Part shown: positions 1 through 22,649 of the stretch, piece by piece | Numbering within the stretch: the first letter of the stretch is position 1 | Layout: each line of letters opens with the position of its first letter | Origin: a virus | Virus record (IMG/VR): IMGVR_UViG_3300008050_000244 | Coordinates: 1 to 27,152 of that record | Length of the DNA: 27,152 bases | Direction: 5' to 3' (one strand) | Program-made: the position numbers and the translations under genes | The notes under the pieces: model-generated | What the model was told of the DNA's origin: nothing | The model's input: only the letters and a program-made list of their open reading frames with translations | Databases searched by the model: none

Positions 1-3000
1 GCTTGTCTAGATGCCACTTCTCAGGGTTCGCCCACTTCTGATACCACTTGCTTACCTCAGAAACTGCGTTGCCTTTCCCGAAGACTGTCGAAGCAATACC
101 GTGTAAGGAGAATCGCCCAACAACATCGAAGAACCCAAGACGCTTATAGTCCATATAGTCTTTCGGAGAAGGCGGGAATAGGTTGTCATCCTGAGGGGAG
201 AGCATCAGGGAGACCTGGGTTCTGGTGTACCACTCCTTTACATCTTTGATTGCCTTATTCTTCAGTGGCGAGAGCATCGAGGCCCCCACATTAAGAGTCG
301 CTCCAGCGGCGAAGATAACTGCTCCGGAGCGAACAACTCGACCAAACTGAGTCCCAACTGCCCCAGCTGCCTGCCACGCCATACGGAAGCCACCAGACTG
401 CCAAAAGCCAGCCCCTAGTGGGGCAAGAGCCTTGTACCCGATAGCAGCTCTCACAGCGGCTGAACGGTTTACACCAACCAGCAGGTTAGCCATAGCCTTT
501 GTGGCTACTGCTTGGGCAGCTGGTGAGGCACCAGGGGTAGTTAGAATCTGTGCAGCCCTCAAAACAATTTTTCTATTTGCTCTGGTTAGTCCAAGGAAAG
601 CAGCGCGAGTGGTAATACCATTCCTTAAGAGGAACGAACGAACACTTCCAGTCTTTGCTCCAGCAGCTAGGCCTGAAGCAGTAGCTGTTCGAATGGAGTT
701 CGCAACTCCAGCCTCGGTAACGCCAGCCTTAAGGGCTGCCGACCTCGCTGCGCCGACGCCAGCTCGTCCACCACCACCTAAGATAAACCTTCCGGCTCTT
801 CCTAGAAGCGCCCCGCCACCAAAGCGGGCTGCGATTACAGAGAGACCTGTACCAATTGCAAGAGTTGCTACTGGGTGATGGCTAATCCATCGACCCAGTC
901 TCTGGGTAAAGCCGAACTGTCCGTTCCATGTACCCCTTGTGTAATCCACAAAGTCGAGACGAGAATCAGTTGATTCTCCATACTGATACAGCTGACCAAA
1001 CTCCCAGCGCCCAAAGTGTTTAAGCTCAGGCTCAAGCATCAAGGAGCCTAGCAGTTTATGGGTACTCTGATATACATCAACCTCTGCACCCTCAGACTCA
1101 AACTCTCTACGCCCTTTTAGAATCTGTACCAGTTCGGTACCGAAAGACTGCACTACGATTTCGGCTAGGTCTCCAGCCTGAGTCCAAACAACATCAACTA
1201 CTCGTCCAGAGATAAGCACCTCTAGAGCATTCGGATCATCCGAATAGCCAGCACGCAACTGCACGTTCAGTCCAGGTCGTAGAACTACTGCTCCAAAAGG
1301 CTGGTCATTAGCCGAAGTCAACTGGATTGGAGAATCCCCGCGAACTCTCGCTGAAGGCTTCTCTGCCTGAATCTTGTCAGTCTTTTCTCGGTCAAAGTAG
1401 TCTAGGTCGGTAACTACATTTCGCTTTGTGCCATCCAGCGTACCTGCAATGTTCTGAAGAACAATAATCGCAGTGTCTGCAGGGTGGTTTCTATCCAAGC
1501 TAACGTTGAACTCTTTTACTCCGTTGTAAGAATAGAAATCATCGAAGTTCAGGAACCTACTCTCATTCTCATCCTCTTCAACAAACATTAGTTTAAAGGT
1601 GGGGAAAGCACGACGCATGGTTAGCTTCTCGGAAACGATATCCTTCGAAGAATCAATAGCAAGCTGCTTGAGCGAAGCAGGATCGAAAGCCATTCGGTGA
1701 GCGCCTATATGAGACTGTAGCTGGGTTCCGCGGATTCCACTCGCCACGGCATCTGCAGTGTCTTGGGTGATGTGCTCGCCCAGGTGTCCCTGCTTAGAAC
1801 CGAAGAAAATCTCAGTATCATTCACCTTGTTGACAAGCTCGACGTACTTGCTCGCATCTGCTCTCGGAACATTAGTGTAAAGGGGATTTCCGTCACCAAG
1901 TGATAGGAGCGGAGCCAAAGGCTTGATGTCCTGCTGAAGTGACTTGAGGATATCGACGCGCTTCTTCAAAGCCTTCTTTTTTGCAGAGATAGCCCTCTGT
2001 CCCTGGCGACCCTCAGCTGTTCTGCCAGCGGGAGATGCGCGACCACCACCGGCGGCAGCCCTTTGCTGCTGCTGGGTAAGTTCGTCAATCTTCTTTTCGA
2101 TCTGAACGATAGCGTTGTCGCCGCTCTTCAGCCACTCCTGATAGTCTTCTTCTGCGCCAGCATAGAAAGCCTCCTGCATCGGCCCAGCGTCTGCTGAGAA
2201 CGAGCCGTCCGCATTCATAAACTGTACTTCGTCACAGCCTTCAGGGTGATGAGTTAGACGATGAAGTAATGCTGACCGCTCAGTGCCCTCATCCATAATC
2301 GTAAGCTGCTCGATGTCCTCTGGATCTAATCCACCATCAGTCTGCATTTCCTTAAGGTGGCCGTAGGCACCTCTCATTGCGGGTTCAATGCGATCGGCAA
2401 CCTGGAGGGCTAGAGCCCCCTGAAGTGCTCCAGGGCCATCTTCGTAAACACTCCACATGTAGAAATCTGGAGAAGTCTGATGTAACTGATCTGGGTAATA
2501 CGGGTGAGCTGGAAGCTCAAGATCCGGATAGCAACCTGCACCCGTCCACTCGTCAGACTCAATGCCTGCTAGTAGCAATTCGTCTAATCCAAAAACCGCC
2601 AGGATGGAGCGGTTGGAAAGAAGCTCATCTGCAAGCTTACTAAGAGCTGCGTGTAGGTAGCGAAGCTTATTCTCTTCAGTTGACTTGCTAACTGGAAGGC
2701 CGACAATGACATTGCCATCGCCGCGCGAAGTTGGCGGCGATGTAATACCGTCGAACATAGAGTCTTCTCGGTCTTGAATCTCCTTGCTTTCAGCTTCGCG
2801 TCGCGCAGCAATATCTGGCGCCCTGCGCTGGATATAGGCCTCGTAAGGTCTAGCCTCTCGGTAGCTTGTGAGCCCGCCCTCAGTAACCTGCTCAATGGGC
2901 CCAGCGCCAATATCGTACCAAGCAACACTCGCCCTGATGCTCTCTGTAACTTCCTCGTAGGAGCGTCTCAGCTTTAGGCCATTCTGGTTGTCTCCAGCGA

Positions 3001-6000
3001 AAGCCAATCCAGAAAGAAATGGGATTTCGTTAAAGATAAACTCTGGCAGGCCTAACTCTAGGTCAAAGAAGCGCATGTATCGACGCACAACGTTGTGCTC
3101 AACGTTGACGGCTTCATTCTCTCGCATAGCCTTGAGGTGTTTCCACTCCTGCCCTTCAGGAACGAACGGCATAGAGATAAGGTCACCGACACCTCTAAGC
3201 GCAGTAAACGTAAATCCGCTAAGTAAATCTTCCAAGGCGTCCTGGCCGGGCGCAACGATCGAGGGGAACTTAGTTCTAAGCTCTCCTCTATCTACGGCAG
3301 GCAGAGACCCAACTTCGACAGGAATGTTCCAGAAGTCCAAGATTTTCTGGAACTCACTAGTAAGATCTGAATCAGAGAAGTTGCTAAGGCTAGGAACCTC
3401 TGACACGAAGCCGGTGTCCTTCCCAGACATTCTTCCTAGGAAGAGAACCTGAGAGTAGAAGAAGAAGAAACTTCTCCACATGGAGGGCTCGGTATCTGGT
3501 AGGTCGTAGAGCTGTTCTGAAATAACGCCTTCGTCAAGAGCCTCCTCTAGGTCGGTCTCAGACATGACAAGACGAGCAACCTGCTGGAGCTTATTCAGCG
3601 CCTGGTAGTAGTGAGAAAGCTCTTCCCAGTTAACTGTTCTCAGTTTAGGGTTGTACTCATAAAACCTGGTAGCGTCAACGACTTGTCGCGTAATGCTGCC
3701 ATCTCGTCCAGCTTCGTATCCATTCTCATCGAAATTGGAGCGCTGAATCTGAATCTCTTCTTCGTAAACATGTAAGTCTGGGTTTTGGCTAAAAGACTCC
3801 GCAATTGAATTGAGAGAAGTATCAATACCGTTTCTACCAAGAGTTTGCGCAGGCCTATTGTCGCCTACCTGAGCCGTAGTGCCTCTCTGAGTCGCTGCAG
3901 CACTACCACCAGAAGCATTAATTAAATCAATAAAGAAATTCTGATTTGCATCGCTTCTTCCTAGGCTGTGCTTCAGTTCAGTTCTCTGTCCATGCTTCGA
4001 GCCTGTATTCTCTGCAAGCGAAGTATACTGAAGTACTTCTGTGTTCCTCCGCGAGCTTGACTCAGCTAGAGTCGCAAACTTGGGATTTTGAGAAAGCGTA
4101 TCTACTGTTGAGGCATCGAGCTTGTTAGCAAGAGCCAGCAGCGCAGCCGTCTCGCCCTCATCCGAGAGGGCGAGACTATCTAGAGCGTGCAGGATTTCCT
4201 TGCGACGAACATTGAGATCGTCGGGGATGTTGTTCACTGGCGTAATTGGGTCTTCGCCATAGGGGTTCGTTTCAGTAACTTCTACAATTACTCCAGACAG
4301 CCCTGGGTTTCCGTCAATCGTGCGGGTTTCGGAAGAGCTAATACTTGTACGCTTCTTTACCTGCAGCTCTCCATTCTCTAGCTGAATTGCATCAGACTCA
4401 GAGAACGTTCCGAACAAACGAGTAATAAAGTGATCTGTTGACGCCGTCCAGCAGTCCGGAACAGGTCGGAATCTGCGCGAGTTGTACTGAAGCTCAGACC
4501 TCATGCCCTCAAGCCACTGTGCGGAATCAGACAAGCCAGCAAGCTTGTCATCATTCGCCAAGGAGACAAACTCAAACTGGAAGATAGGCTCAATAGACCC
4601 TAGGTGCTGGTGAGTTGGGAACTCGGAGCCAAGAATTGGGATTGAAGCAATAACATGAGATAGCCCACCGCTAACACCTGTAAGAACCATTCCCTCTCTA
4701 TAGAAGAGAGACATATCTTCCGGTGCTAGCGGGGAGCGCCAATCAATGTCGTTGTTTGCAGAATAAACTGTCTGCATGTTCAGCCTGCGCCAAACACCTA
4801 GGACGTCTGCATCGTTCTCGTAGTATCTCCAACCACCATTGTAAAGCTCTCCAACGATATCCTGGAGGCTCGTCTTTTCTTCTGGAGTTAATCCAAACTC
4901 GTCAATCTCTGCCTTCTTTGCGGCTTCGCCTTCAGCGTAAGCTTGCTGCTCTGGGGAGAGCGCAGAGCGAGCATCAGCGACACTATGCCCAAAGCGCTCT
5001 TCATAAGCGTCGGCCAGCGAAGGACCAGAAGTAGTTACCTCTGGTGCAGGCTCTGCGTCTTTCTCAACCTCAACAACGGGCTCAGGCCTGTCTGCGACGG
5101 GCCCCGTACCAAAGCCATCCTTATAGTATCTGAGAGGATCGACCTTAATTCCACGGACCGAGCCACGGCTCTTAGAGATACTCTCCCTGATGCTGAAGTG
5201 AAGGTGAACTGGAGTCGCACCCAGCGAACCAGTGAAACCTGCAGCAGCCTGTGTCGAGCGAGTAGAAATGTTTCCAGTATCACCCGTAATGCCAATGATC
5301 TGACCTTGTGTTACCCGGTCCCCACCCTTAACAGTAATTCCGTTAGCATCGAGGTGAGCGTAACCACTAATGATATTGTAAGTGCCCTCATCGTCTTGGT
5401 GCTCAATGTATAGACGTACACCTCCACCCTGTCGGTGGTTATTTGGGTTCTCCCAGATGCTTGCAGTCTGAACAACAAAGCCGTCAGCAACCGCACGTAC
5501 AGGCGTACCTACAGGGCAACGGATATCCAACCCCTTATGAAACCTCTTCTGGTCCTTCGCCTCTTCGTTAGTAAGCCCTTCCCTCTGGGCGGAGCCATGT
5601 GCTTCCATGCCTCGGTAAAGGCCCGGCGCAGCCTGTGCTTCCCCAACGTGGTTCTTCTCATCCTGAAGTAGATATTCGTCAGCAATTGGCCAGATGAATC
5701 CACTTGATGGGCGAGGACTGGCCTCGCCACCTGGACGCTCAGGACCAAGGGCTCGATAGATATCGAGAGCTTCTTTCGCAGCGCGCTCCTGCTGGCGCTG
5801 CTGCTTCAACTGAATCTTCTGGGAAAGCTCAACACTCTTGTAGCTGTGGTAAACGAAACTTAGGTTGCGAGACTTCTCATGCATCTTGCGAACCCAAGTG
5901 TTGCCCTCACCGCTTGGATACATTCCTAGCTCGTGCAGGCCATACACCTTCCGGCGAGTGCCGACGTGCTCCTCTGATGTGCTTAGTAGCTCGCCAATTC

Positions 6001-6871
6001 CCCACGGCTCGAATCTCTCTGGGTACTCACCGCCCTCGGTGATATCAGAGTAAACATCAATGCCAAAGTTGTTGAATAGAGCTTTCTGCTGCAGTGTATT
6101 AATGTAGCGAACATAGATATTCGAATCGCTCGGCCTCGTTACAAAACGAGCCGGAGCCATGTTTGAAGGCAGGGGTAGCAGATCGAATACTGAACCTCGG
6201 TGGGTAGCCTCAAGATCGTGTAAGGTGGGTCCCGAGCTACGACGCTCAGGCTCTGCAGCCATTACGTCATACTCCTGTACCGCCTGCCTATCAGAAGCTA
6301 CAACCTCAGGAAGCAAAGACTGGAGAGGTCTTAGACCCACGCCGAAAGTAGGAATAGTGAATCGCGCAACAGTCGGGTTCCCATCAAAGAACTCGCCAGT
6401 GTCGCCAGAGAGTTCGACAGGCCTCGTAACCCAATCATCCCTGAATAGGTAGTTGATAGAGTAGGGGAAGTAGTTGAACCAGCGAAGATCAAGCTGCACT
6501 ACATACGTATTCGGAGCCTTCGGCATAGGCTCTACGTGAAGCGAACTCATAGTAAATGCCATCTGCTGGAACTGCGGCCAGTGAGGTACCATTGCATGAC
6601 GCAAGTACTCGCTATCCACATAGCAGAACGGAGAGTGTCTGAACTGAACGATGAGCCTGTGTAGGTCTAGAATTAGCTCAGGAGTAAAGGTCATCTTTAC
6701 AGAAACCTGAGCCATTCCGTGCCCACTAGGAATCTTCGTGGACGCCTTTGAACGAAGTGTCTTCCACTTCCACTCCAAATCCTCCTTGCGCACAGAGATG
6801 TGCTGCGGAGGAATATAGAGGTCAATGTCGTTGATGACGAAGTTCCCCTGGCGGCCAGTCAGGAGTGGCAT
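1..6871 (-). CDS. Giant tail-tip/baseplate hub protein with M23 endopeptidase domain (3' end outside window)
   Basis: The ATG at 6871 directly follows the upstream stop (TAAATG), with an AGGAG site inside the last codons of that gene. I read the frame to base 1 without a stop, giving at least 2290 codons. Residues 1-150 look like a tail/baseplate structural domain. Residues 440-575 form a complete M23 (LytM/lysostaphin-type) peptidase: H445-x3-D449, H506 in YAHLD, and H556-L-H558. By family knowledge H445, D449 and H558 bind zinc, and H506 and H556 are catalytic. Residues about 745-800 carry a THQHLG-containing structural segment. A charged probable coiled coil spans about 1588-1645. Residues about 1740-1960 resemble a gp27/gpD-type hub barrel (the PG..V.L..GY..D pattern, then G.V..V). 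Residues about 1995-2195 are Gly/Ala-rich and hydrophobic. Inferred role: tail-tip hub that cuts peptidoglycan at infection. M23 is secure; the hub call is moderate. Confidence 0.85.
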   Translation of the reverse strand, partial: MPLLTGRQGNFVINDIDLYIPPQHISVRKEDLEWKWKTLRSKASTKIPSGHGMAQVSVKMTFTPELILDLHRLIVQFRHSPFCYVDSEYLRHAMVPHWPQFQQMAFTMSSLHVEPMPKAPNTYVVQLDLRWFNYFPYSINYLFRDDWVTRPVELSGDTGEFFDGNPTVARFTIPTFGVGLRPLQSLLPEVVASDRQAVQEYDVMAAEPERRSSGPTLHDLEATHRGSVFDLLPLPSNMAPARFVTRPSDSNIYVRYINTLQQKALFNNFGIDVYSDITEGGEYPERFEPWGIGELLSTSEEHVGTRRKVYGLHELGMYPSGEGNTWVRKMHEKSRNLSFVYHSYKSVELSQKIQLKQQRQQERAAKEALDIYRALGPERPGGEASPRPSSGFIWPIADEYLLQDEKNHVGEAQAAPGLYRGMEAHGSAQREGLTNEEAKDQKRFHKGLDIRCPVGTPVRAVADGFVVQTASIWENPNNHRQGGGVRLYIEHQDDEGTYNIISGYAHLDANGITVKGGDRVTQGQIIGITGDTGNISTRSTQAAAGFTGSLGATPVHLHFSIRESISKSRGSVRGIKVDPLRYYKDGFGTGPVADRPEPVVEVEKDAEPAPEVTTSGPSLADAYEERFGHSVADARSALSPEQQAYAEGEAAKKAEIDEFGLTPEEKTSLQDIVGELYNGGWRYYENDADVLGVWRRLNMQTVYSANNDIDWRSPLAPEDMSLFYREGMVLTGVSGGLSHVIASIPILGSEFPTHQHLGSIEPIFQFEFVSLANDDKLAGLSDSAQWLEGMRSELQYNSRRFRPVPDCWTASTDHFITRLFGTFSESDAIQLENGELQVKKRTSISSSETRTIDGNPGLSGVIVEVTETNPYGEDPITPVNNIPDDLNVRRKEILHALDSLALSDEGETAALLALANKLDASTVDTLSQNPKFATLAESSSRRNTEVLQYTSLAENTGSKHGQRTELKHSLGRSDANQNFFIDLINASGGSAAATQRGTTAQVGDNRPAQTLGRNGIDTSLNSIAESFSQNPDLHVYEEEIQIQRSNFDENGYEAGRDGSITRQVVDATRFYEYNPKLRTVNWEELSHYYQALNKLQQVARLVMSETDLEEALDEGVISEQLYDLPDTEPSMWRSFFFFYSQVLFLGRMSGKDTGFVSEVPSLSNFSDSDLTSEFQKILDFWNIPVEVGSLPAVDRGELRTKFPSIVAPGQDALEDLLSGFTFTALRGVGDLISMPFVPEGQEWKHLKAMRENEAVNVEHNVVRRYMRFFDLELGLPEFIFNEIPFLSGLAFAGDNQNGLKLRRSYEEVTESIRASVAWYDIGAGPIEQVTEGGLTSYREARPYEAYIQRRAPDIAARREAESKEIQDREDSMFDGITSPPTSRGDGNVIVGLPVSKSTEENKLRYLHAALSKLADELLSNRSILAVFGLDELLLAGIESDEWTGAGCYPDLELPAHPYYPDQLHQTSPDFYMWSVYEDGPGALQGALALQVADRIEPAMRGAYGHLKEMQTDGGLDPEDIEQLTIMDEGTERSALLHRLTHHPEGCDEVQFMNADGSFSADAGPMQEAFYAGAEEDYQEWLKSGDNAIVQIEKKIDELTQQQQRAAAGGGRASPAGRTAEGRQGQRAISAKKKALKKRVDILKSLQQDIKPLAPLLSLGDGNPLYTNVPRADASKYVELVNKVNDTEIFFGSKQGHLGEHITQDTADAVASGIRGTQLQSHIGAHRMAFDPASLKQLAIDSSKDIVSEKLTMRRAFPTFKLMFVEEDENESRFLNFDDFYSYNGVKEFNVSLDRNHPADTAIIVLQNIAGTLDGTKRNVVTDLDYFDREKTDKIQAEKPSARVRGDSPIQLTSANDQPFGAVVLRPGLNVQLRAGYSDDPNALEVLISGRVVDVVWTQAGDLAEIVVQSFGTELVQILKGRREFESEGAEVDVYQSTHKLLGSLMLEPELKHFGRWEFGQLYQYGESTDSRLDFVDYTRGTWNGQFGFTQRLGRWISHHPVATLAIGTGLSVIAARFGGGALLGRAGRFILGGGGRAGVGAARSAALKAGVTEAGVANSIRTATASGLAAGAKTGSVRSFLLRNGITTRAAFLGLTRANRKIVLRAAQILTTPGASPAAQAVATKAMANLLVGVNRSAAVRAAIGYKALAPLGAGFWQSGGFRMAWQAAGAVGTQFGRVVRSGAVIFAAGATLNVGASMLSPLKNKAIKDVKEWYTRTQVSLMLSPQDDNLFPPSPKDYMDYKRLGFFDVVGRFSLHGIASTVFGKGNAVSEVSKWYQKWANPEKWHLDK
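4149..4176. repeat. Perfect 11-bp inverted repeat inside the M23/hub gene
   Basis: Arms GTCTCGCCCTC (4149-4159) and GAGGGCGAGAC (4166-4176) pair perfectly around a 6-nt loop. No T-run follows on the coding strand, so it is not a terminator. It lies inside an uninterrupted reading frame. Confidence 0.85.
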
Positions 6872-9800
6872 TTAATCTCCTAGGATTCGGTCGATGTAAG
6901 AGCCGGTAATCGGCCTACGTGAGTCATTGATTCTAACAGAGGACTGACCTCCGATTCCATTCATGAAGTTCGTCAGCCTTGAGATGGCTTCCGGCCCACC
7001 TACACTTCCTCGGACCTGATAAGCATTAGAACGAGCGAAGTATGTCTCTGGCGTATTGATAGGAGTATCGGGCGAACCCATCATTCCCATATCGGCTGAA
7101 GAGCGTCCAGCACCAGTGCTAGATGAGAGTAGTGTACCCTGCGCAATCTCAGATTGCACCCTGTGGGACATATTCTCACCAGGCATAGACAAAGGAGTAG
7201 GAGCGTATCCCTCGAATCCCGTCATTGCGCCAACCGCTAGAGAACCCGCTAAGCCTAGGGCGATGGGCGCAATTAGTCGCTTATCCAATCGAGAAGCAGC
7301 ACCACTCACCTGGTCAAAAATAGTCGTAGCCTTAGCAACGCGGCGCTCGATGTCACTCATTTGGCCAAGAGCGATAGCGGCCTGTTCTAGACCACGGTTT
7401 TGAATTGCTGCTTCATACGACGAAACTGCATCAGCATTCTGTAAGAACCGAGCTAGCTGCTTATCTGTTTCGGGAACTCCGCTTGGCTGGCGATTTGCGA
7501 TGCTCTGTAAGAAGTCCACGATAGAGTCTAGGTTAAAGCTAACTCCCTTTACCCCAGCGCTCAGATTCGCAATCATCTCAGCACTAGCGCCGCCGGTCAT
7601 CCCAGACATTCCTTGGATAGTTACTGCCCCTGTTGCAAGCTCCTGACCCCTGAATGTCATATTTTTCAGGACAGACTTCATCGCGTCAGAGCCTTCGCCA
7701 CCCATCATTTGATGAATAGCCCAACGCAGCGGCCTTCCCATATCTACAGGTGAGTCAAGCTTCTTAGCCTTCAGCAAGGAGTCTTCTTGAAGAACCTTCA
7801 ATAGGTCCCAAGAAGCTCCAGCGATCTCACGAGTCTCATCCGTTCCGTAGCGAACGATTCCACTACGCAAATTTCCGAAAGCTACGTCAATCGCGCCTAC
7901 ATCCTTAGCCATGATCTCCTGAGCAATTTTGCCTTCTGTGAACTTGTGCAAGTTCTCAGCGATAGCACCCGGAGCTACTGTCGACAATACCTTTCCAGTT
8001 TCTGCAATTCCAGCCTTGGCCTGCTGCCTAAATACAGAAGTGCGAATAGCAGACACGAAATCTCTTTGCATCGACGACTTCCTGTTCATGCCGCCCAATA
8101 CCTTGCCAGCAGATTTGTCTGAGAGGAAGGTGAAGTGATAAGCATCAGAGTCGAAGTCACCAAACATCTTGTTAGCCCAGTCAACATTGAACGTCTGAGT
8201 TGAACCCATCCCCTTAATATTGACATTAGCTGTCATCTTCGGAATATAGACTTCACCACCACCATGGCCCGCCCAGCTATCAACAGACTGAGACATAGCG
8301 TCAAAGAATCTCTTCTTCTGCTTCCTTCCTAGGCCAGCTACATCATGGAAGCTACTTACCTTTAGGCTTCTTGCAAGTCGACTACCAGTCTTGGTCCCAG
8401 TAAAGGCTTGGAATGCTCTGTCCGCCCCACCGGTAAACTCTCGTGTATCGCGAAACACTTGTGTTGGAGTAACGTGTGAGGGTGCAAGCGTGGGATATCG
8501 TCCACCAATGGCAACTAGGCCTTGGTGTGCGCCGCGCTCCTGGCCTGTGAAGAACATGGAGAAGCGCCTACTCATATCAGCTTTTGCAGCTTCGCGGGAC
8601 ATACCCTCTGCCGTTGCTCCAGACATAAAAGTCTTCATAGCATCAGTGAATGCAGCAGTATTCATAAATACTGCCTGACCGCTTGCAGCTCTATAAGACC
8701 TAATCGCTCTCGCCTTCGAGGCGGCGTTGCTACCGCCTCGAATATCATTAAGCATATCAAGACTAGAACCCTCAGGGAAGACAGAGCCAAGCATAGACCC
8801 TCTGGTGACGTTTGTCATCGCGCCGGCAAAGAGGTCCGTCATGTTTCCGCGAAAGGCTCCTAGGCGGTCCTGGGCGACCCTGAATGCCTTTGAGCCAGCA
8901 CCCTGCGCAGTGGAAATTCGGAGTAGGTCATCATGAAGGGTTTTTACATTGCGAACGTACTGAGGAAAAATCTCAGTGGATGAACCATCTGCAGCACGAA
9001 TAGAAGTCCCTTTCATGTTCTCTAGAATGTCTCCACCTGGTAGGAATACAGAGGAGGATCCACCAAAAGCTTTCTCTGCGGCGGCTTGCACCTGCCTGTT
9101 CCCAGTGAAGTCGAGCGCAAGACCATCAGGGCTTTGCCTAAGAAGTGCTTCTACGGCTGCTTCTCCACCACCGCCAGCGGTGACAGACTTAGTGAACTTC
9201 TCCCAGTTCATCAGCGTTGGTCCCTCAACGCCTAGCTTGTGTGCGGCTCTCACGTCACCAAGACTAGTGTGACCTATCATCGTTGACATAGTCTTAGATA
9301 GCCCGCTCGCGACAGACATGTCACGACCAATGTTCTCCTTGCGCGCCAGGAACGAAGTCATTACTTCGTTTACTTCATCTGCGTTCATACCCATAGTGTT
9401 TCGTAGGCGCTCTGCAAGGAACTTGAATGAGCGAGGCTCTATAGAACCTTTCGCCGCACCGTATGTTAGGTACGGTGTCGGCGCCGCTGTAAGGGAGCCC
9501 ATCCCTATAACGGCCTTAGACTCAATGCCTTCCATAACGCCTGCTACCGCACCCTCCCCAAATGAACCTCGGATTGAGGCTTCGAGCCCAGAAGCGAATC
9601 CCTTTCCTGCGAATCTATTTCCTACAGCGTGAGCACCGCCTAAGACGGAGCCAGCCATTTGTGGAGAAATGTCATTCATGTATACCGCTGCAGACAATAC
9701 TTCGGTAGCAAAACTAGTCGCACGCTGGAGCTTGAGGGCTTGTGTCAGAGGGGTCTTGGCTCCTCTAAGAGTCGCGGCATCTAAGCCTGCGCCTTTTGCG

Positions 9801-12070
9801 AACCAGGCATGTAGATCGTCAGCCCCACCCCTGGACCCCCAGGGCCCCAGGCCTAGCAGATCTAATCCACCAACCATCTGGTTAACAAGATTGTCAACAG
9901 ACTTACGTAACATCGCGCCACTGGTGAAAAGTGTGCGATTCATATCCATCCCGGCTTCTCCAAATAGGGTCGCCGCAGTCATCCCACTACTACCTACAGG
10001 GATGCCTCTGAGCATCTTTCTAATGGCGCTTTCGTCTGCTTCAAGAGTTGTTCCCTTGAATAGGTCACCGAAGAGCTTAGTTCTCCCAGTGGAGAACTCA
10101 GCCTTTCCATGGATATGAATCTTGTGCTGCGGGTTCCTTCCGCCAGTCACACTTCCAGAAGCCCTGAGGTGCATACCGGTCATATCGGGATGAGCCTTGA
10201 TGAAAGCTTCCCTACCTTGAGGACCCATTCCGAGCGCACCCTTATGACTTAGAATTTCAGCTCTAGTCAAATAGACACTCTCGCCCTTGCTTGTAGCATG
10301 GGTAATCCTGTTGAGTAGCTTACGAGAAGAGAGATTGTGTTCTTTTGGGTTTAACACAGTCTTAACATATGGTGAACTGATGTTAGTCCTACCAGGCATT
10401 ATTGCTTCGCCTTCGCCAATTCCGAAACGAGTACTAGTCTTCTTCTCAGACATGTCAAAGAAGATAGCCTTGTTCATAGAACCCGAGACCATATCGTTGG
10501 CTACAGACATGTTTCCACCGTAGACCCTACGATCAGTTCGGCGCCCGACAGTAACGTTGGCTTGATTGTGGTGTGGGAAGATAAAGGTATCCCTTCCAAG
10601 CTGCTGGCCACGCCGAGCAGTTGTCAAAGAGGTTACCTGGGTTACTACTCCACCACCACGCATTGAGGAAGTATTGACACCCACGTTCATCGTGTCTCCG
10701 AACGGACCCCTGTTTACAGAAGGCTTCGATGACGGATGAAAGAATGAATCTTCTGGATGAAGGCTGGCGTCAGCAGCTAGCCAGGGCTGGAGATGGAAGG
10801 CCCTGTTTGAGTTAAGGGCTTCCATTCCGACAACGGTCATGTGCTGGCTACGAGTCCTGTATGCATTCAGTAGGTTTCGACCGTACTCATCATTCTGTAG
10901 GGCTGCCCGAGGTAGAGCTTCGCTAAACGAGAGGGTGTGCTCACCGAACGTCCTGGAGTCCAGCATCCCTAAGTTGCCACCAACCTTGTCCATCCGTTGC
11001 TCAAAATGGCGGACAAAGAATTCTTCTGTTCCAACGATTGAAGCTGTACCCATCTTGGGAAACATAAAGCTGGACTGGACTACGTCCTTGGTCAGGCGAA
11101 CCCTCTCGCCATGAGCAGCAAGCTGAAGCTCATCCATCTTTCCCGCGATTCCTGGTGCATCACCGAATAGCGGTGTTGCCGCATAAGGTGTAGCTAAAGC
11201 TTCTCCCGAGCGAATAATTTTAAGAGCCTCCCCGGGTCGATTCTTGCCTCCCCAAGAGGCAAGTTCCAGCGGAACAGAGGTAATGAACTTGTTGCCTTTT
11301 CGAATCTGAGCATAGTATGATACTCCAACAGAGCCCTCTTTGACACTGACTAAAGAAACGCTACCACCCGCTCGCTGGGTGATATTGTTGATGCGCTCGT
11401 AGAAGTTTGTTGCAGCACTACCCAGTTCTGTAGCTGAAATTTTGTTATACCCCGCGCCACCCATGCCTTTCATACTTACAACAGGTGATGCGATCTGCGA
11501 ACGAATGTCGAGAGCTGAATTCAATGAACGATTGAACTCGCGTCGTACTGACTCAGTGCTTGTCTCTCGGATAGTGCTTACAGCCTGCTCAATAAGCTTC
11601 TCACTGTTACGCAAAATATCATCGGACTCCGATTCCAGCATCTGGCCAAGGGACGTGCGGATACCTTCGAGTGCAGGGTCATTTCTTTGGAGATCTAAGT
11701 TGTCGATAGTCTCAAGTACGGATGTGATTACAGCTCGACGAGACTCAGCGCTCTCCGTGAGGATATCTTTAACGAACGTCCCTTTCGTTAGCTGCTCTCT
11801 AAAGCGCGCAGCCTGAGCATCCCGAGTGACAGCTTGCTCCTCGTGGATACGACGAAGGTTATCTCCAACAGAGATAGCCGTATTCTGGGCAGTGTTTGTC
11901 TTAAGATTGACAAGAGAGCTTGCATCGTTGGACTTAAGCGCACGCCAACCGTGCGCCACGCCGAACATCACTGGAGCTACACCTAGTGCCTGCTTCAGAA
12001 TGTTCGAGGTTGACTCGATAGGAGTTCTCGTAATGAGACTCGCCGGTCCGTTGGTGTTGTCGTTTGCCAT
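6872..12070 (-). CDS. Giant virion protein, 1732 aa; possible divergent double-psi beta-barrel RNA polymerase
   Basis: The ATG at 12070 shares its A with the preceding stop (TAATG), so translation is probably coupled; the only nearby SD is a weak AGG. The start has a short hydrophobic patch (about 27-42), followed by a polar, probably coiled-coil stretch (about 70-190). A hydrophobic segment lies near the C-terminus (about 1597-1615). Three segments recall multisubunit-type RNA polymerases. K665-x6-K672-G, followed by a GIPVG segment at 689-693, recalls the beta-subunit two-lysine barrel. R1191-Y-P-T-L1195 recalls the beta-prime RxPTLH motif. D1305-F-D-S-D1309 recalls DFDGD. Their order matches single-chain polymerases such as YonO and crAss-like gp66. 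The R-to-D spacing is 114 residues, against about 35 in bacterial beta-prime, and the usual Gly is Ser. Its place between a tape-measure-like gene and the tail-tip lysin suggests a virion protein, perhaps ejected. That it is a gene is certain; its function is not. Confidence 0.9.
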   Translation of the reverse strand: MANDNTNGPASLITRTPIESTSNILKQALGVAPVMFGVAHGWRALKSNDASSLVNLKTNTAQNTAISVGDNLRRIHEEQAVTRDAQAARFREQLTKGTFVKDILTESAESRRAVITSVLETIDNLDLQRNDPALEGIRTSLGQMLESESDDILRNSEKLIEQAVSTIRETSTESVRREFNRSLNSALDIRSQIASPVVSMKGMGGAGYNKISATELGSAATNFYERINNITQRAGGSVSLVSVKEGSVGVSYYAQIRKGNKFITSVPLELASWGGKNRPGEALKIIRSGEALATPYAATPLFGDAPGIAGKMDELQLAAHGERVRLTKDVVQSSFMFPKMGTASIVGTEEFFVRHFEQRMDKVGGNLGMLDSRTFGEHTLSFSEALPRAALQNDEYGRNLLNAYRTRSQHMTVVGMEALNSNRAFHLQPWLAADASLHPEDSFFHPSSKPSVNRGPFGDTMNVGVNTSSMRGGGVVTQVTSLTTARRGQQLGRDTFIFPHHNQANVTVGRRTDRRVYGGNMSVANDMVSGSMNKAIFFDMSEKKTSTRFGIGEGEAIMPGRTNISSPYVKTVLNPKEHNLSSRKLLNRITHATSKGESVYLTRAEILSHKGALGMGPQGREAFIKAHPDMTGMHLRASGSVTGGRNPQHKIHIHGKAEFSTGRTKLFGDLFKGTTLEADESAIRKMLRGIPVGSSGMTAATLFGEAGMDMNRTLFTSGAMLRKSVDNLVNQMVGGLDLLGLGPWGSRGGADDLHAWFAKGAGLDAATLRGAKTPLTQALKLQRATSFATEVLSAAVYMNDISPQMAGSVLGGAHAVGNRFAGKGFASGLEASIRGSFGEGAVAGVMEGIESKAVIGMGSLTAAPTPYLTYGAAKGSIEPRSFKFLAERLRNTMGMNADEVNEVMTSFLARKENIGRDMSVASGLSKTMSTMIGHTSLGDVRAAHKLGVEGPTLMNWEKFTKSVTAGGGGEAAVEALLRQSPDGLALDFTGNRQVQAAAEKAFGGSSSVFLPGGDILENMKGTSIRAADGSSTEIFPQYVRNVKTLHDDLLRISTAQGAGSKAFRVAQDRLGAFRGNMTDLFAGAMTNVTRGSMLGSVFPEGSSLDMLNDIRGGSNAASKARAIRSYRAASGQAVFMNTAAFTDAMKTFMSGATAEGMSREAAKADMSRRFSMFFTGQERGAHQGLVAIGGRYPTLAPSHVTPTQVFRDTREFTGGADRAFQAFTGTKTGSRLARSLKVSSFHDVAGLGRKQKKRFFDAMSQSVDSWAGHGGGEVYIPKMTANVNIKGMGSTQTFNVDWANKMFGDFDSDAYHFTFLSDKSAGKVLGGMNRKSSMQRDFVSAIRTSVFRQQAKAGIAETGKVLSTVAPGAIAENLHKFTEGKIAQEIMAKDVGAIDVAFGNLRSGIVRYGTDETREIAGASWDLLKVLQEDSLLKAKKLDSPVDMGRPLRWAIHQMMGGEGSDAMKSVLKNMTFRGQELATGAVTIQGMSGMTGGASAEMIANLSAGVKGVSFNLDSIVDFLQSIANRQPSGVPETDKQLARFLQNADAVSSYEAAIQNRGLEQAAIALGQMSDIERRVAKATTIFDQVSGAASRLDKRLIAPIALGLAGSLAVGAMTGFEGYAPTPLSMPGENMSHRVQSEIAQGTLLSSSTGAGRSSADMGMMGSPDTPINTPETYFARSNAYQVRGSVGGPEAISRLTNFMNGIGGQSSVRINDSRRPITGSYIDRILGD
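8715..8742. repeat. Perfect 10-bp inverted repeat inside the 1732-aa gene
   Basis: Arms TTCGAGGCGG (8715-8724) and CCGCCTCGAA (8733-8742) surround an 8-nt loop, within coding sequence. No T-run is present on the coding strand. Confidence 0.85.
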
Positions 12071-15000
12071 TACCTAAGCGCGTTCGCTATTCCTGAGAAG
12101 ATATCGGTCTCTCTGTTATCGTTCCACTCGAACTGACCTCGGCTGCCTAGCCATGAGTTCGTACTGTGTACTGTCATCTGCGGACCTGTTCCGTTTCCAC
12201 CGGGGTTAGCTAATCTATAAATAGCACCTTCGATGTATGTACGTCCAGGAGAGAAGGGGCTCTGCATAAGGAACTCATCGGAGCCCTCTAGGTAAGGCTT
12301 GCGAACCATTTGGCGCTCCTGGCTCTCCCACATATCGTACTCGTGGATATCCTTACCCAATGTACTAATGTACTTCATCTTAACATCGTCTAGGGATACA
12401 TCCTGGTGCCATCCGATCCAATCGTCATGAGGCATCGGGTCCATCATCAACTCAGCATACTTCTGACTTAAGAACTGCTCATCAAGCTGTCGTTGAGCGT
12501 ACGGAGACATTGTTGGGTCACCAGCATCTAGTCGATTCCATACGCTCTCGTAAAGAGCTGCCTGATCCCCTGGTACCATCTCAAGGATGCGCTTTCGGTC
12601 ACTACCAGCCGCATAGGCAAAGGAGTCAAAGAACTTCTTCTCTGAATCAGGCAGCGCCTTGTAGATACCTAGAGGATTACCCTGAGGGTTCACACCATAG
12701 CGAGTTTCGCTAGCCTGCCTTAAAAGCGCTCGCTTCCCGGCCTTGTCCCCCATTGCTCCAGCCTGGTTGGCTGCAGCCATAGTCTTTGCGAACTGGAGCT
12801 TGTCGAAGTACTCACCGACATCATCGGAGTCTTTTCTCCACGCAGGCTTGCCATCCCAGCCCAAGAAATTCGCAGCGCTGTGAGCAGCTGGTCTAAACCA
12901 ATCTCGAATTGGCTCGTCCCAGAAAGCTAAAGGGGTACCATATAGGCGCTCATATTCGTACTGCTCGATAGCTGAACGATTACTCAGGAACTTCTGAACA
13001 GGTCTGAAGCCCATTAGGGTCATGTACTCTACTGGTGCAGTGATACCTCTAAGGGTCTCTTGCGCATCGAACCAAAGCGGCTGTGTAATTCTAGACAAGG
13101 GGGTGATGATTGCAGCAGAGTCTGCCTGCTGCCAATTCATCTGGATCTGCTTCTCGTTAAGCATTCGATCCACACCGTCCATATACCTATTTACTTCAGC
13201 AGAAGTCTTTCCGGCTGCACGATTCTGATATAGGCCTTCGCGGGTCTTGAAGAACTCGCTAGAAGTTGGAGCAATATCAGCAAGGATTGCGTACCTATGG
13301 ATTAGCGGGTATGCCTCTGGGCGCAACCCGGCAAGTTCTGGGTGTAGCGACTGATAACCAGCTCCCGGAAGACGTACGTCTCCATGCTCTACGCTGCGAT
13401 ATGGGTCTCCGTAATGGAAGCGCGACGGGATCCAAGAAGGCATAGCATTGAGAATCGGGTTTCTCTGCTCAATCTCTGACCTGCGGCGAGGGACAAAGCG
13501 TCTCAACGCCTCAGTGGTGCCAAATAGACCGCCAAGCGCCATATCCCAATAAGACTCAACCGGAGATGTCATTTGTGCAGCTGATGCCAGCACAGGGGTT
13601 TGAGCACCGAACGTGGCCGACCCAGTAATCGCTGCAGTCATAACGTTCTTGAACCAACCTGTCATACCTTCAAGTTCTCTAAACTGATAGTTCAAAGAAC
13701 CAGCAAGGAAGCCGGGGGCGCCACTGGTAGTAGGCGTACCTGGGCCGAGCCCGCCGAGGTTGTAGCTTGGTTCACCGGGCATGGGCCTGGATGCAAACTG
13801 TAGTTCACCATCAGGTCCTTCTCGAACCCAATCGGAAACATGCATCAGTCGGGATGGCTTAATAAGCCTCCCGACGGTAGACGAAAGCAGTCCTCCAATT
13901 ACTGGAACATTCTCAAATGCTGCCATTGAAATCGGGTAAGGACGGTCGTAGTATTGCTGCCTCTCCAAATCGTAGGTGAAGTTCTTAATCCAGAACTTAC
14001 GCATTGGAGAAATCTTGTCCTCGTCTTCACCCCAAACAGCTTTCTGCTTACTGCGGTTCATCATGAGCGTGTACTCAGAGGGGCGATGATAATCTACGCC
14101 AAGGCCTTCGAACGGCGTACCGCCGCCTTCCCACCATCTTGACTTACCTACAGCTACCTGCTGGCGTCCAGAGTAGATATTAATCTTCTCGCCGGGCCCC
14201 TGGAGGGAGCCGAATACGCCCTTAGTTAGAACTGCATGGGCAGCAAAACCAGTACCGAAGAGCATACCCAGTCTTCCAAGACGGGTATTAAATCCCATCC
14301 CAGAGATAGCCTCTTTGTAAGCTTTCTCATCTAGAGAAGCTCCAAAGAATGCGTGATAAGCCTTTGCCCCTGTTGCTTCAAGCGTTCGCATTGCTCCAGC
14401 GCCGAAACCGGCACCAGACGGATATCTACGATTAATTGCTTCTAGCCTGGTAATTAGGGACTGGTTAACCCCAGTTTTGCGGACTTCCTGAAGTTTAGTT
14501 TCCTCTGCCAGCTCCCAAAGCTGGGAGAGTTTATTTGCGAGCTGTCGCTGACTATCTAGACCGTCGGACGCGGCAGCCCACTGCAAGCCAGCAAGATATC
14601 TTCGATGCTTGATAAACTCTGGGCCACGACTTCTCGCAATATTCTCATAGTAGTCAAACCCTAGTTGGGTCTGAGCCATAGTCTCTACTGAGCGATAGAA
14701 GTGTGAACGAATAGATCTTGTAGGTGGTACCTGCCCTGCAACTTCCGACATATTGATGCCGATTCGGTTGCGCAAGCTACTCGGAAGCATGCCATTCCAG
14801 CCATACTTGCTCTTAGCAATCTTGCCAGGAAGACTTCCGTGAGACAGGACTGCAACGCCGATACCTGTAAGCGCTCCAGTCTTCCAGTCACTAATTCCTG
14901 GGAAAAGCCCTTCGACAACCCTTCTGTACGCACTAGTACCAGTTATCGCACCAATGCCAGAGCTAGCAACGTCCAAGTTCACTGCAGTTGTAGCAATTCC

Positions 15001-16203
15001 AGGAATAACACCTTCGTCAAATCCTGGGAGAATCATTTGCCCAGCGAAAGAGGCCAGGCCTGCCATCATGGCAGCCTGTGGACCCTTGGCAAATCTACTC
15101 ACTACTCCTGAGACTCCAAGAGAGGTTAGACCTGACATTGCCAGGTGGCCAGGTAGTCCACCCTGGCGTCGAGCCCAATCTGTCTGAGAAAGACCGACAC
15201 CTAAGGCACCTACAGCTCCAGCCTTTACGCCGAATCTCATGAACATTGAGTGCGCTGGGCCAGAGCGAATCTTCATAGAGAAGCCCATCTTCTTCTGAAG
15301 CGCGCTGTCTACGTCTCTAACAAAAGGGATCTGCTCCATTGTTCCCTGGAGCAAGCGATTTAAACGCTCCATGCCTGAGGCAAATGGAGCTAGCGGCAAG
15401 GTGCTACGCCGCCCGATATCCGCGATAGTCCCAGCAGGGCCAGAGATCGAAGGAACTGGGAAATGTGTTGCTGGGTTGTAACGGCCTCCAGCCCCCATCG
15501 TCTCCTGAGCGAAGAATTGATCCGGCCTAAAGCCGTCAATCTCCGTCATCCCTAACTGCTGAAGAACTCCATACGCAGCTGTGTTCATTCCCTTATTGCG
15601 GGTGAACAAGTGCTCGTCTCCAAGAGTTCTCTCGAAGAGGCTAATTGAGTCAGACAGTAGGTGAGACTTGCTACCAGTCTTTAGATATAGGGAGCCTCGC
15701 CCGCTAGTAGAACCTTGGGCTCTCTCGAAAACAAGGGAGTCGGGTCCACCTGCAACTGGAAAAGATCCCTTACCAGCAAGCCCTAGCTTGCTTAGGTCTT
15801 GCCCAGTGATTCTCTCTAGGTAATCTAGGCTAAGGCCACCCTTACCCTGTAAAAAGGTCTTGTCCCACGAGCGCTGGTATACCTCGGCGCCACTTCCGGT
15901 AACAGACCGAGCTAGCCTCATCCCCTGCGCCGGAGCAGAAGTGAACGGAGACATCCATTCCGCTGCGCGGAAGGTGTTTGCAATACTAAATGGGGATAGG
16001 TTTCCAGCCAACCTTGCATTGGCTTGGAGAGAGTCAAAGAGGCTGTAGCCGCCTCCGATGCCTGCACTAGCAGCAGCTACACCGCCACCAATACCGAGGC
16101 CAACAGCGATTGCGAGGTTACTCGCTCGCTCGCCTCCTGGAAGATAAGGCTCTGCGGGATTAGATGTCCAGACTGTGGGACGCTGCTGATGCGGGCTGTA
16201 CAT
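12070..16203 (-). CDS. Giant virion protein, 1377 aa; tape measure or ejection/membrane-penetration candidate
   Basis: The ATG at 16203 follows an AGGAGA site that overlaps the stop of the preceding gene. The protein starts with a Pro-rich segment, then a Gly/Ala-rich hydrophobic stretch at about 29-53. Similar hydrophobic Gly-rich segments recur near 315-340, 371-420, 439-455, 641-663 and 854-878. The C-terminal third is soluble and charged, with a Trp-rich segment around 1260-1295 (DWIGWHQDVSLDDV). The gene directly follows two chaperone-like genes, the classic position of a tape measure, and such proteins often hold transmembrane segments used for channel formation. It lacks an obvious long coiled coil or repeats, so an internal or ejection protein is also possible. 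The stop overlaps the next ATG by one base. That the gene is real is certain; the role is inferred from position and hydrophobicity. Confidence 0.88.
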   Translation of the reverse strand: MYSPHQQRPTVWTSNPAEPYLPGGERASNLAIAVGLGIGGGVAAASAGIGGGYSLFDSLQANARLAGNLSPFSIANTFRAAEWMSPFTSAPAQGMRLARSVTGSGAEVYQRSWDKTFLQGKGGLSLDYLERITGQDLSKLGLAGKGSFPVAGGPDSLVFERAQGSTSGRGSLYLKTGSKSHLLSDSISLFERTLGDEHLFTRNKGMNTAAYGVLQQLGMTEIDGFRPDQFFAQETMGAGGRYNPATHFPVPSISGPAGTIADIGRRSTLPLAPFASGMERLNRLLQGTMEQIPFVRDVDSALQKKMGFSMKIRSGPAHSMFMRFGVKAGAVGALGVGLSQTDWARRQGGLPGHLAMSGLTSLGVSGVVSRFAKGPQAAMMAGLASFAGQMILPGFDEGVIPGIATTAVNLDVASSGIGAITGTSAYRRVVEGLFPGISDWKTGALTGIGVAVLSHGSLPGKIAKSKYGWNGMLPSSLRNRIGINMSEVAGQVPPTRSIRSHFYRSVETMAQTQLGFDYYENIARSRGPEFIKHRRYLAGLQWAAASDGLDSQRQLANKLSQLWELAEETKLQEVRKTGVNQSLITRLEAINRRYPSGAGFGAGAMRTLEATGAKAYHAFFGASLDEKAYKEAISGMGFNTRLGRLGMLFGTGFAAHAVLTKGVFGSLQGPGEKINIYSGRQQVAVGKSRWWEGGGTPFEGLGVDYHRPSEYTLMMNRSKQKAVWGEDEDKISPMRKFWIKNFTYDLERQQYYDRPYPISMAAFENVPVIGGLLSSTVGRLIKPSRLMHVSDWVREGPDGELQFASRPMPGEPSYNLGGLGPGTPTTSGAPGFLAGSLNYQFRELEGMTGWFKNVMTAAITGSATFGAQTPVLASAAQMTSPVESYWDMALGGLFGTTEALRRFVPRRRSEIEQRNPILNAMPSWIPSRFHYGDPYRSVEHGDVRLPGAGYQSLHPELAGLRPEAYPLIHRYAILADIAPTSSEFFKTREGLYQNRAAGKTSAEVNRYMDGVDRMLNEKQIQMNWQQADSAAIITPLSRITQPLWFDAQETLRGITAPVEYMTLMGFRPVQKFLSNRSAIEQYEYERLYGTPLAFWDEPIRDWFRPAAHSAANFLGWDGKPAWRKDSDDVGEYFDKLQFAKTMAAANQAGAMGDKAGKRALLRQASETRYGVNPQGNPLGIYKALPDSEKKFFDSFAYAAGSDRKRILEMVPGDQAALYESVWNRLDAGDPTMSPYAQRQLDEQFLSQKYAELMMDPMPHDDWIGWHQDVSLDDVKMKYISTLGKDIHEYDMWESQERQMVRKPYLEGSDEFLMQSPFSPGRTYIEGAIYRLANPGGNGTGPQMTVHSTNSWLGSRGQFEWNDNRETDIFSGIANALR

Positions 16204-20345: not shown

Positions 20346-22649
20346 TTACCCTAGCTCGGATGCTTCCGCAGCGAGCGAAGTTTCGACCGTAATTCTCTCG
20401 ATTGAGAAAGGTGGAATCATCGTTAGGGCTACAGTGAGCCTACCGATAACCTTGTCCGATCGCGTGTAACGTAGCCTTGCGACTGCACCACCGTTGAAGC
20501 CGAGCTGACGCTCAGCCTTAAGGAAGCCGTCGATTGCTGTCTGTAGAGACAGCAGCTGCGTACTACTAAATGGCTTACCAATGTAGCCTCGGCAGATTCT
20601 TCGGATTCCCTCAAGCTCACGGTTCACAGAGCGAATCGTTGAGATGCGAGTCCAATCAGAACCAGGATGTGCAGCAGTCTTTGAGTTAACGATAACTGGA
20701 CCCACACCGTCTACCTGCTGTACACCGATGAATCGGAATCCAGCAAGGTCGTTCTGCAGAGTAATAGGTACTCGAACTGGGCTTACAATCGCAGTCATAA
20801 GACCGTTCTGCTCACCAATTGGCTCAAGGTTCTCTGCAAGTGTGGTTAGCTTACCTGCGAACGCTGCTTCGAAACTTCCTCGGTAGGTACCGAAGGAGTT
20901 TACATGGACAGGGTGCTCGTAGGTGATGAAGATATGCTTACCGATATCTACCGGCATACCATTCAGGTCTTCATCTTCGTCGCCATCGTCAATGCCGTAT
21001 GGGCGGCTGTTGTTCGGAAGATCGTCACCAACAGTCTTGATGAATCCACCATAAGCGAGACCGTTAGAGGCAGCGCCATTGACGAGCTGCTCGTAACGAT
21101 AACCCGCTGCACCAGTCATGAATGGGTCTCCAAGAAGCCCCACACCCTCGTCGGCGCTTGAGTTAATTCCGTCAACACCGCTGAAGTCCGTGAATACAGG
21201 ACGCTCACCAACCCACCCAGCTACGTCAAGGCGGGAGAACCCGTCAGGAGGCAGAGTGGAAACAACACCAATCATGGTACGCCAGCTTGTGCTTGCCCAC
21301 TCAAGGAAGGATGCTAGAGAGTGCGCAAAGTTAACCTCGCGAAGCTCTGCAACGGCGCCAGCCTGGAAGCGAGTATGCACTACGGCAGGGACGTCGTCGC
21401 CAGTTAGGTCTGCATGAGAAAGGTATGAGCCCGCAGGGAGATCAAACAACTCTGGGCCGTCCGGGGACATAGTTCCTGCAGAAGCAGAAGTAATAGTTGC
21501 CAGAGCGGTTGCAGGTCCAGAAAGGTTGAATCGTGTTTCAATCTGGTCGTCAGTTGAAACACCAGCCTCAATCTGGATTGAGATCGCGTTACCCACAACA
21601 CTTACTACCTCTGCACCAGCGGTACCGCCACCAGTGAATTCGATGCTTACAACCTCTCCCGCAGGGCCAGTAGCGACGGCGGTAAAGGTGTTGGTACCGG
21701 TATCAGTGATAACAGCAGTAGCATTAGTAGCTGTAAACAGTGTCGCTGTTGGCGACATGTAGACGAACTTCTTACCTCGGTAAGTAAGCTCCCAAGCATA
21801 ACCTAGGGCATCTCCCGCGCTCCCCGGTACTGGTACCGAGGTGTTGCCAGAAACAACATACGAAGGCGTATCGCCTCGCGACACGTTCGGATCGTCTAGG
21901 TGAATACCAGCGGGCACCACAATGTCGGCATCGCGGTGATCAAGTAGGTGGTAAGCTACCTCTAGCGCAGCAAAGCGCTCAGGTAGCGACGGGTCTGTAC
22001 CGTCGGCGCCGTTTGTCTTTGTCAGGGCAACAGATACAGCAGTCGCAGCGACGTCAGCCGTGAAACTACCCGTTACCATGTCAAGAAGCGTAAGTGCGTT
22101 GTCCGGGTCAGTGATATCGTTCAGCGCAAACAGGTCAAGACCATTGAGTGTGACATCAATAATGCCAGTATCAATGATCGGGATGCCGTCAATAGTTGCC
22201 TCTTCTGAATCGTAAACAAACTGACTCTCTAGCTTGTCGTAAACAAGGATACGAAGAGTATCGTTGGTTGCGTCGTCGTTAGTGTCAATCGGCTCTAGAA
22301 TTAGAGCGTACCTACTCAGAATTTCCGCATCGCGGAATTCTGGAGTAATCTGGAGTGTACCGCCGACGTTATCAGTAAGTAATACTGTGCCCTGGCTTCC
22401 ACCGATTCGCATAAGGAAAATGTTGTCAGCACCCTGAGCGCGGACCTCGTGGTACTTTCTGTACATCTCTGATGATGCACCGAATTCTGTACGTACTTCA
22501 CCAGAAGAGAGCCCACGAAATAGTTCGTAGGAAAGCCCACTGGGTGCGGTGCCGAGAATCAGGACTCGGGGCTGCGCCGATCCCGTGTCGGTAACAAGAT
22601 TACCGTCCAGGTACACAGCGCCAACGCCTGGGATATTTTCATATGGCAT
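20346..22649 (-). CDS. Contractile tail sheath protein, 767 aa
   Basis: The ATG at 22649 has a GGAGG 5 nt upstream. The N-terminus (GVGAVYLDGNLVT, then RVLILGTAPSG) and the C-terminal part (about residues 640-767: IGVQQVDGVGPVIVNSKTAA, W-x-R-I-S-T-I-R-S-V, YIGKPFSSTQLLSLQTAIDG, LTVALTMIPPFSIERITV) follow the standard sheath pattern. By family knowledge the C-terminal domain and terminal strands interlock neighbouring subunits, and contraction drives the tube through the envelope. The size exceeds T4 gp18 (about 660 aa). Part of this is explained by a beta-rich segment at about 305-392 resembling a repetitive module of phage structural proteins (GNAISIQIEAGVSTDDQI). An acidic loop lies at 553-562. 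Together with the tube gene it identifies the virus as a myovirus. Confidence 0.93.
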   Translation of the reverse strand: MPYENIPGVGAVYLDGNLVTDTGSAQPRVLILGTAPSGLSYELFRGLSSGEVRTEFGASSEMYRKYHEVRAQGADNIFLMRIGGSQGTVLLTDNVGGTLQITPEFRDAEILSRYALILEPIDTNDDATNDTLRILVYDKLESQFVYDSEEATIDGIPIIDTGIIDVTLNGLDLFALNDITDPDNALTLLDMVTGSFTADVAATAVSVALTKTNGADGTDPSLPERFAALEVAYHLLDHRDADIVVPAGIHLDDPNVSRGDTPSYVVSGNTSVPVPGSAGDALGYAWELTYRGKKFVYMSPTATLFTATNATAVITDTGTNTFTAVATGPAGEVVSIEFTGGGTAGAEVVSVVGNAISIQIEAGVSTDDQIETRFNLSGPATALATITSASAGTMSPDGPELFDLPAGSYLSHADLTGDDVPAVVHTRFQAGAVAELREVNFAHSLASFLEWASTSWRTMIGVVSTLPPDGFSRLDVAGWVGERPVFTDFSGVDGINSSADEGVGLLGDPFMTGAAGYRYEQLVNGAASNGLAYGGFIKTVGDDLPNNSRPYGIDDGDEDEDLNGMPVDIGKHIFITYEHPVHVNSFGTYRGSFEAAFAGKLTTLAENLEPIGEQNGLMTAIVSPVRVPITLQNDLAGFRFIGVQQVDGVGPVIVNSKTAAHPGSDWTRISTIRSVNRELEGIRRICRGYIGKPFSSTQLLSLQTAIDGFLKAERQLGFNGGAVARLRYTRSDKVIGRLTVALTMIPPFSIERITVETSLAAEASELG

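Follow-up and report, generated by a model that had tools for sequence, protein, structure and literature searches.

A probable two-barrel RNA polymerase, fused into one chain, in the tape-measure slot of a contractile-tail cassette of a phage

The window, a stretch of 27,152 nucleotides of the IMG/VR virus record IMGVR_UViG_3300008050_000244, encodes a 1732-aa protein, P0001, that is very probably a single-chain homologue of the two-barrel (double-psi beta-barrel, DPBB) RNA polymerases located in a tail cassette, judging from its conserved residues and predicted fold. The probability that a single-chain two-barrel RNA polymerase is built into this giant tape-measure-slot protein of a contractile tail is put at roughly 85%. 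The phage would probably carry its own polymerase in the tail and inject it with the DNA to read the first genes. The divergent two-barrel polymerase suggested in the original prediction is upheld by the conserved active site, by the predicted two-half fold and by a Pfam match of the corresponding protein of Bacillus phage KLEB27-3.

Tail cassette and gene slot of P0001

The window represents a contractile-tail cassette, in which a tail sheath gene and chaperone-sized genes are accompanied by P0002, by P0001, and by a hub protein that includes an M23 peptidase. The main genes, all on the minus strand, are as follows.

20346..22649 (-), tail sheath of the contractile tail (phrog_16991, E 1e-29; ME3 and KLEB27-3 sheath)
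12070..16203 (-), P0002, 1377 aa, structural protein of the virion, orf145-like and a homologue of ME3_35 (E 2e-43)
6872..12070 (-), P0001, 1732 aa, protein in the tape-measure slot, predicted to be a two-barrel RNA polymerase in a single chain
2..6871 (-), P0003, at least 2290 aa, baseplate-hub-like, with an M23 peptidase domain (domain match)

The P0001 gene lies between the orf145-like and hub-like genes, and its start codon is overlapped by the stop of P0002. The M23 peptidase domain of P0003 comprises residues 443-563 (E 1.6e-16).

The gene order of the cassette and distant homology agree with Acinetobacter phage ME3, Bacillus phage KLEB27-3, and Moorella phage MTATph1, whose cassettes follow the layout of Bacillus phage 0305phi8-36. 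In the latter, the tape measure role has been assigned, tentatively and from length and position, to orf146, directly before the hub gene orf147 (PMC2147016). P0001 occupies this slot, which in the 0305phi8-36 lineage is thus tentatively the tape measure one, and the KLEB27-3 protein in the same slot was deposited as structural.

Invariant residues of the putative active site

P0001 alone had no match in Pfam, PHROGs, PDB sequences, INPHARED or IMG/VR. Relatives were retrieved by an IMG/VR search with its neighbor P0002 as a motif-free anchor, which yielded 80 loci (designated by L numbers). The motifs named in the original prediction, K665-LFGDLF-K672-G, G689-IPVG, R1191-YPTL, and D1305-FDSD, are all present in P0001 at the positions given, and the span 8144-10078 corresponds to its codons 1309-665. 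The following features of P0001 were delimited, with residue counts from an alignment of 24 sequences.

10055..10078 (-), K665..K672 (KLFGDLFK), the two predicted catalytic lysines of DPBB-B; 24/24 aligned, F667 23/24
9878..9925 (-), T716-Q731 (TSGAMLRKS...Q), likely beta-subunit post-lysine segment; K723 22/24, Q731 20/24
9431..9439 (-), E878-P-R880, between the two RNA polymerase halves; E 24/24, R 23/24
8486..8500 (-), R1191-Y-P-T-L, putative counterpart of beta' RxPTLH; R and P 24/24
8216..8458 (-), insertion within DPBB-A between RxP and DxDxD, approximately residues 1205-1285; specific to clade A
8144..8158 (-), D1305-F-D-S-D1309, predicted metal-binding DxDxD; each D 24/24
7763..7771 (-), K1434-A-K1436, downstream lysines; K1436 24/24, K1434 15/24
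7196..7261 (-), C-terminal hydrophobic segment, approximately residues 1604-1625; conserved in alignment A2, outside the RNA polymerase core, role putative

The alignment contained P0001 and relatives at 15-30% identity from two clades, A (P0001-like) and B, over 971 columns. Ten columns were fully invariant (K665, K672, E878, G1012, R1191, P1193, D1305, D1307, D1309, and K1436), among them all six residues whose invariance had been proposed as a check (K665, K672, R1191, D1305, D1307, and D1309). Together with P1193, these make up seven of the ten invariant columns and are those of the RNA polymerase active site. Since some aligned members (L084-L120) had been found with patterns that included DxDxD, the count was repeated on 13 sequences, namely P0001 of the window and 12 proteins retrieved via the neighboring gene with no DxDxD pattern. 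The seven residues were conserved in 13/13, and all ten columns remained invariant, joined by G554 and R880.

P0001 thus has DxDxD, an upstream RxP, and two DPBB-B lysines N-terminal to DPBB-A, the features of two-barrel RNA polymerases. DPBB-B would provide K665 and K672, and DPBB-A would provide R1191 and the metal-binding D1305, D1307, and D1309. The segment T716-Q731 (TSGAMLRKSVDNLVNQ; consensus TSxDMLKKx...Q) probably corresponds, by its position and pattern, to NPxGVPSRMN of the beta subunit. GIPVG at 689-693, originally taken for the GVPSRM counterpart, was ruled out as not conserved among the 24 sequences. K1434-A-K1436 possibly belongs to a trigger-loop or bridge region.

Two reservations of the original prediction were followed up. 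Serine in place of glycine in the DxDxD motif is within the range of the family, in which G, S, A, and K all occur at position 1308. The distance of 114 residues between R and D in P0001 is mostly due to the clade A insertion, which is largely missing from L011, clade B, and the L016/L118 homologue core; the gap amounts to roughly 45-75 residues in L011 and most of clade B, and to 40 in KLEB27-3 gp034 (RYPTI to DYDGD). Most of clade B, together with L011 and KLEB27-3, has an R-to-Q spacing of +10. The spacing is likewise +10 in E. coli beta' (RAPTLHRLGIQ).

Predicted fold

A first AlphaFold2 (AF2) model, for which 13 sequences were used, was of poor quality (pLDDT 59.4) and gave some RNA polymerase rows with no clear winner, a subunit of the AR9 non-virion enzyme being among the matches. 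The model of residues 530-1500 built from 24 sequences reached a mean pLDDT of 82.7 and a pTM of 0.81. When it was compared by VIA-align with Foldseek's top 1000 PDB chains, 78 chains had Z >= 8, and the best 50 of the 78 were all two-barrel RNA polymerases; Z values of 8-10 are moderate. QDE-1, the best among the matches listed, aligns along the entire length of the model (340 residues, Z 10.1, rmsd 4.3). Two halves were matched separately.

9458..10483 (-), beta/Rpb2-like half with DPBB-B, residues 530-871 (AF2 model residues 1-342; 8wa1_B, Z 8.9, 238 residues)
7649..9274 (-), beta'/Rpb1-like half with DPBB-A and the helices after it, residues 933-1474 (AF2 model residues 404-945; 8u9r_A, Z 8.6, 355 residues)

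The structural check suggested in the original prediction therefore came out in its favor, with a model in which both RNA polymerase halves are predicted in one chain, matching QDE-1, beta/Rpb2, and beta'/Rpb1. The modeled order, beta-like and then beta'-like, would be that expected of a fused enzyme.

Foldseek itself gave no significant match in the PDB (best E 0.24). Against viral models (BFVD), three matches were better than 1e-3, one of them named a minor tail protein. The best were this siphovirus "minor tail protein" A0A8S5SD80 and an unnamed viral protein, A0A7R7G2L5 (E about 1e-7, probability 1.00), and the weaker matches include viral RNA polymerases. The two best matches may indicate a wider spread of tail-borne RNA polymerases. 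Thermus phage P23-45 gp96 and crAss-like gp66 were absent among the structural matches listed (best 50 of 78; Foldseek top 1000 chains).

Slot proteins of the relatives

DxDxD was found in the slot protein of 28/28 scorable relatives, about two-thirds along the protein. The scorable set consisted of 27 nonredundant loci from L004-L043 (ME3 is L036) and KLEB27-3 gp034; L020, with the slot gene cut at the contig end, and loci stopping before the slot gene were left unscored, and L042 was placed with the second clade. The slot proteins are often mutually dissimilar by BLAST. The profiles of clades A and B matched each other by hhalign (probability 99.5, E 3e-23, 579 columns), and matches of clades A and B to the distant slot groups (ME3, KLEB27-3, L025, L040, and L019) were weak over the full length. 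The distant groups are tied to clades A and B by synteny and motif. KLEB27-3 matched the DPBB-A segment profile with a probability of 97.8, the profile rows including KLEB27-3 itself. A few of the distant clades do not conserve the R of RxP.

The profile search advised in the original prediction gave a divided result, weak for P0001 and positive for KLEB27-3 gp034 in the same slot, in which Pfam RNA_pol_Rpb1_2 matches exactly at RYPTI...DYDGD with E 0.015, below Pfam's own cut-off. In the L009 contig, a single-family scan placed PF00623 at DFDGD (E 0.004 for one genome), although a full Pfam scan of L009 gave nothing. A weak profile match of P0001 is what the two-barrel superfamily would lead one to expect.

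DxDxD is absent from the slot genes of MTATph1 and of clade C (L044-L083), and no homology between clade C and clades A/B was found by hhalign. The clade C slot genes (L051:12370-17085 and equivalents in L046-L077) have G-x-FDLDDK as an invariant motif, with RQP[TS] about 25 residues after it. These are motif kinds as in DPBB-A of RNA polymerases, in reversed order; the pair may represent a barrel of changed order or have no relation to one. In L049, L053, L060, L072, L076, L079, and L081 of clade C, the slot gene is split into at least two frames, possibly by introns, inteins, true gene splits or assembly errors. In MTATph1, the slot gene is followed by an annotated transposase gene (L003:19539-21026). 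Scanning of bacterial genomes gave only four short P0002 matches in Acidobacteria MAGs, 0/4 accompanied by a slot gene with DxDxD.

A DnaQ-like 3'-5' exonuclease domain is present in the slot proteins of KLEB27-3 (L002:20004-27308, residues 68-262) and MTATph1 (L003:15513-19442, approximately residues 870-1065; Pfam RNase_T, E 5e-5), and the two regions match each other by tblastn (E 2e-3). The N-terminal part of L011:6361-11820 probably contains such a domain as well. Unlike the KLEB27-3 and MTATph1 proteins, P0001 shows no DnaQ-like exonuclease domain.

Candidate second polymerase in near relatives

The window is a 27-kb fragment, and candidates for a second polymerase come from the contigs of near relatives. 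In those of L004, L007, and L009 (161-193 kb), a free-standing protein of 952-1091 aa carries RxP[LMT] and DDDGD, and one of these candidates matches PF05183 (RdRP, E 0.0023). The L040 contig has a further frame of 508 aa with RNP..DSDGD. Candidate loci for a second RNA polymerase are L125, L129, L130, and L127.

Alternative explanations

It is unlikely that P0001, as a two-barrel RNA polymerase homologue, is no longer catalytic and has a purely structural role in the tape or tail. Such a fate would suit a mosaic, fast-evolving tail slot, and the variable R of RxP in distant clades and the slot genes of MTATph1 and clade C, which lack DxDxD, point the same way; clades A and B, however, keep exactly the catalytic residues while most columns have drifted, which is the pattern of a working enzyme. 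Polymerase activity of P0001 is proposed here as a prediction from conserved residues and model. That an active two-barrel enzyme is made in the infected cell, stays unpackaged, and is merely encoded among tail genes is quite unlikely. Gene position by itself does not prove packaging, but the slot is syntenic with the one assigned to the tape measure protein (PMC2147016), its KLEB27-3 occupant was deposited as structural, and near relatives already have a separate free-standing polymerase.

A tape or tail protein of unrelated fold, with D-x-D-x-D as a calcium loop and coincidental K and R residues, is very improbable. D-x-D-x-D by itself is common, and family searches do not recognize P0001; against this, the two K residues, RxP, and DxDxD are all invariant together, and the confident model is matched by RNA polymerases only, among the matches listed (best 50 of 78). 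The calcium-binding loop, which the original prediction had kept as an alternative for this motif, is not needed.

Proposed role and significance

As a polymerase built into the slot protein, P0001 would reside in the tail, pass into the cell along with the DNA, and carry out early transcription; in near relatives, a hand-over to the second, free-standing enzyme would follow. If this is true, a highly divergent tape-fused enzyme would occur across a broad group of large phages with contractile tails, and tail delivery of RNA polymerases would be a strategy that recurs. A likely identity is provided for a conserved giant protein not annotated as a polymerase in isolates ME3 and KLEB27-3, along with new material on how two-barrel RNA polymerases are rebuilt for passage through a tail tube. 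It is conceivable, if rather doubtful, that the 0305phi8-36-like contractile-tailed large phages, including ME3 and KLEB27-3, are an ancient lineage in which ruler, DNA conduit, and early RNA polymerase are one tape protein, with a re-ordered active site in clade C (GGFDLDDKG before RQPTG).

A full-text literature search gave no report of an RNA polymerase in a P0001-type slot in the main texts, earlier listing being possible in supplementary tables, including the RNA polymerase survey of PMC10770324. As tape-fused two-barrel enzymes, only those of Thermus siphophage P23-45 and its kin were found described in the texts searched (PMC10770324).

Comparison with known RNA polymerases

KLEB27-3 gp034 and ME3_36 share with P0001 the 0305phi8-36-like slot and DxDxD, and differ in having no detectable pairwise similarity to P0001 and annotations other than RNA polymerase. 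The crAss-like phages, likened here by description, differ from the window in tail type and gene context. Their gp66-type RNA polymerase likewise has two barrels in a single chain, and is regarded as carried in the virion in fusion with large proteins (PMC10770324). The jumbo phages phiKZ and AR9 have virion and non-virion two-barrel RNA polymerases, but these are split into several subunits, and the phiKZ virion enzyme is head-packaged and not encoded as a tail-cassette protein (PMC13282480).

QDE-1 and the eukaryotic RNAi polymerases, orf99 of 0305phi8-36, and YonO (PF05183 type) have both barrels in one chain, as is predicted for P0001. QDE-1, orf99, and YonO differ in being free-standing enzymes outside a tail cassette; orf99 is a gene distinct from the tail-slot gene (PMC2147016), and in a 2021 jumbo phage survey only the YonO-like enzyme ABS83659.1 was named for 0305phi8-36 (PMC7824862). 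P0001 gave no PF05183 match in the Pfam search. Its hhalign comparison with YonO was not significant, and the gp96-YonO control was equally weak, the method being blunt here. With gp96, a weak match was limited to the DPBB-A segment (probability 34, E 4e-4), and the full length was not significant. Membership in the gp96-type or YonO family was not claimed from matches this weak. Instead of YonO or crAss-like gp66, with which the original prediction drew its analogy, the nearest functional analogue is the tape-fused virion enzyme of P23-45 (PMC10770324).

gp96 of P23-45 is a tape-fused two-barrel RNA polymerase, active in vitro and proposed to transcribe during DNA entry (PMC10770324). Like gp96, P0001 is a predicted single-chain two-barrel enzyme in the tape-measure slot with RxP and DxDxD. 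P23-45 has a long non-contractile tail, and its 5002-aa gp96 has the polymerase in the N-terminal part with no clamp (PMC10770324), whereas the 1732-aa P0001 is encoded in a contractile-tail cassette and has its core mid-protein (approximately residues 530-1500), with a long helical region between the barrels. P23-45 encodes a virion and non-virion pair (PMC10770324), and its second, free-standing enzyme is paralleled by candidates in near relatives of the window. By analogy, the slot and free-standing candidates of L004, L007, and L009 would resemble this pair.
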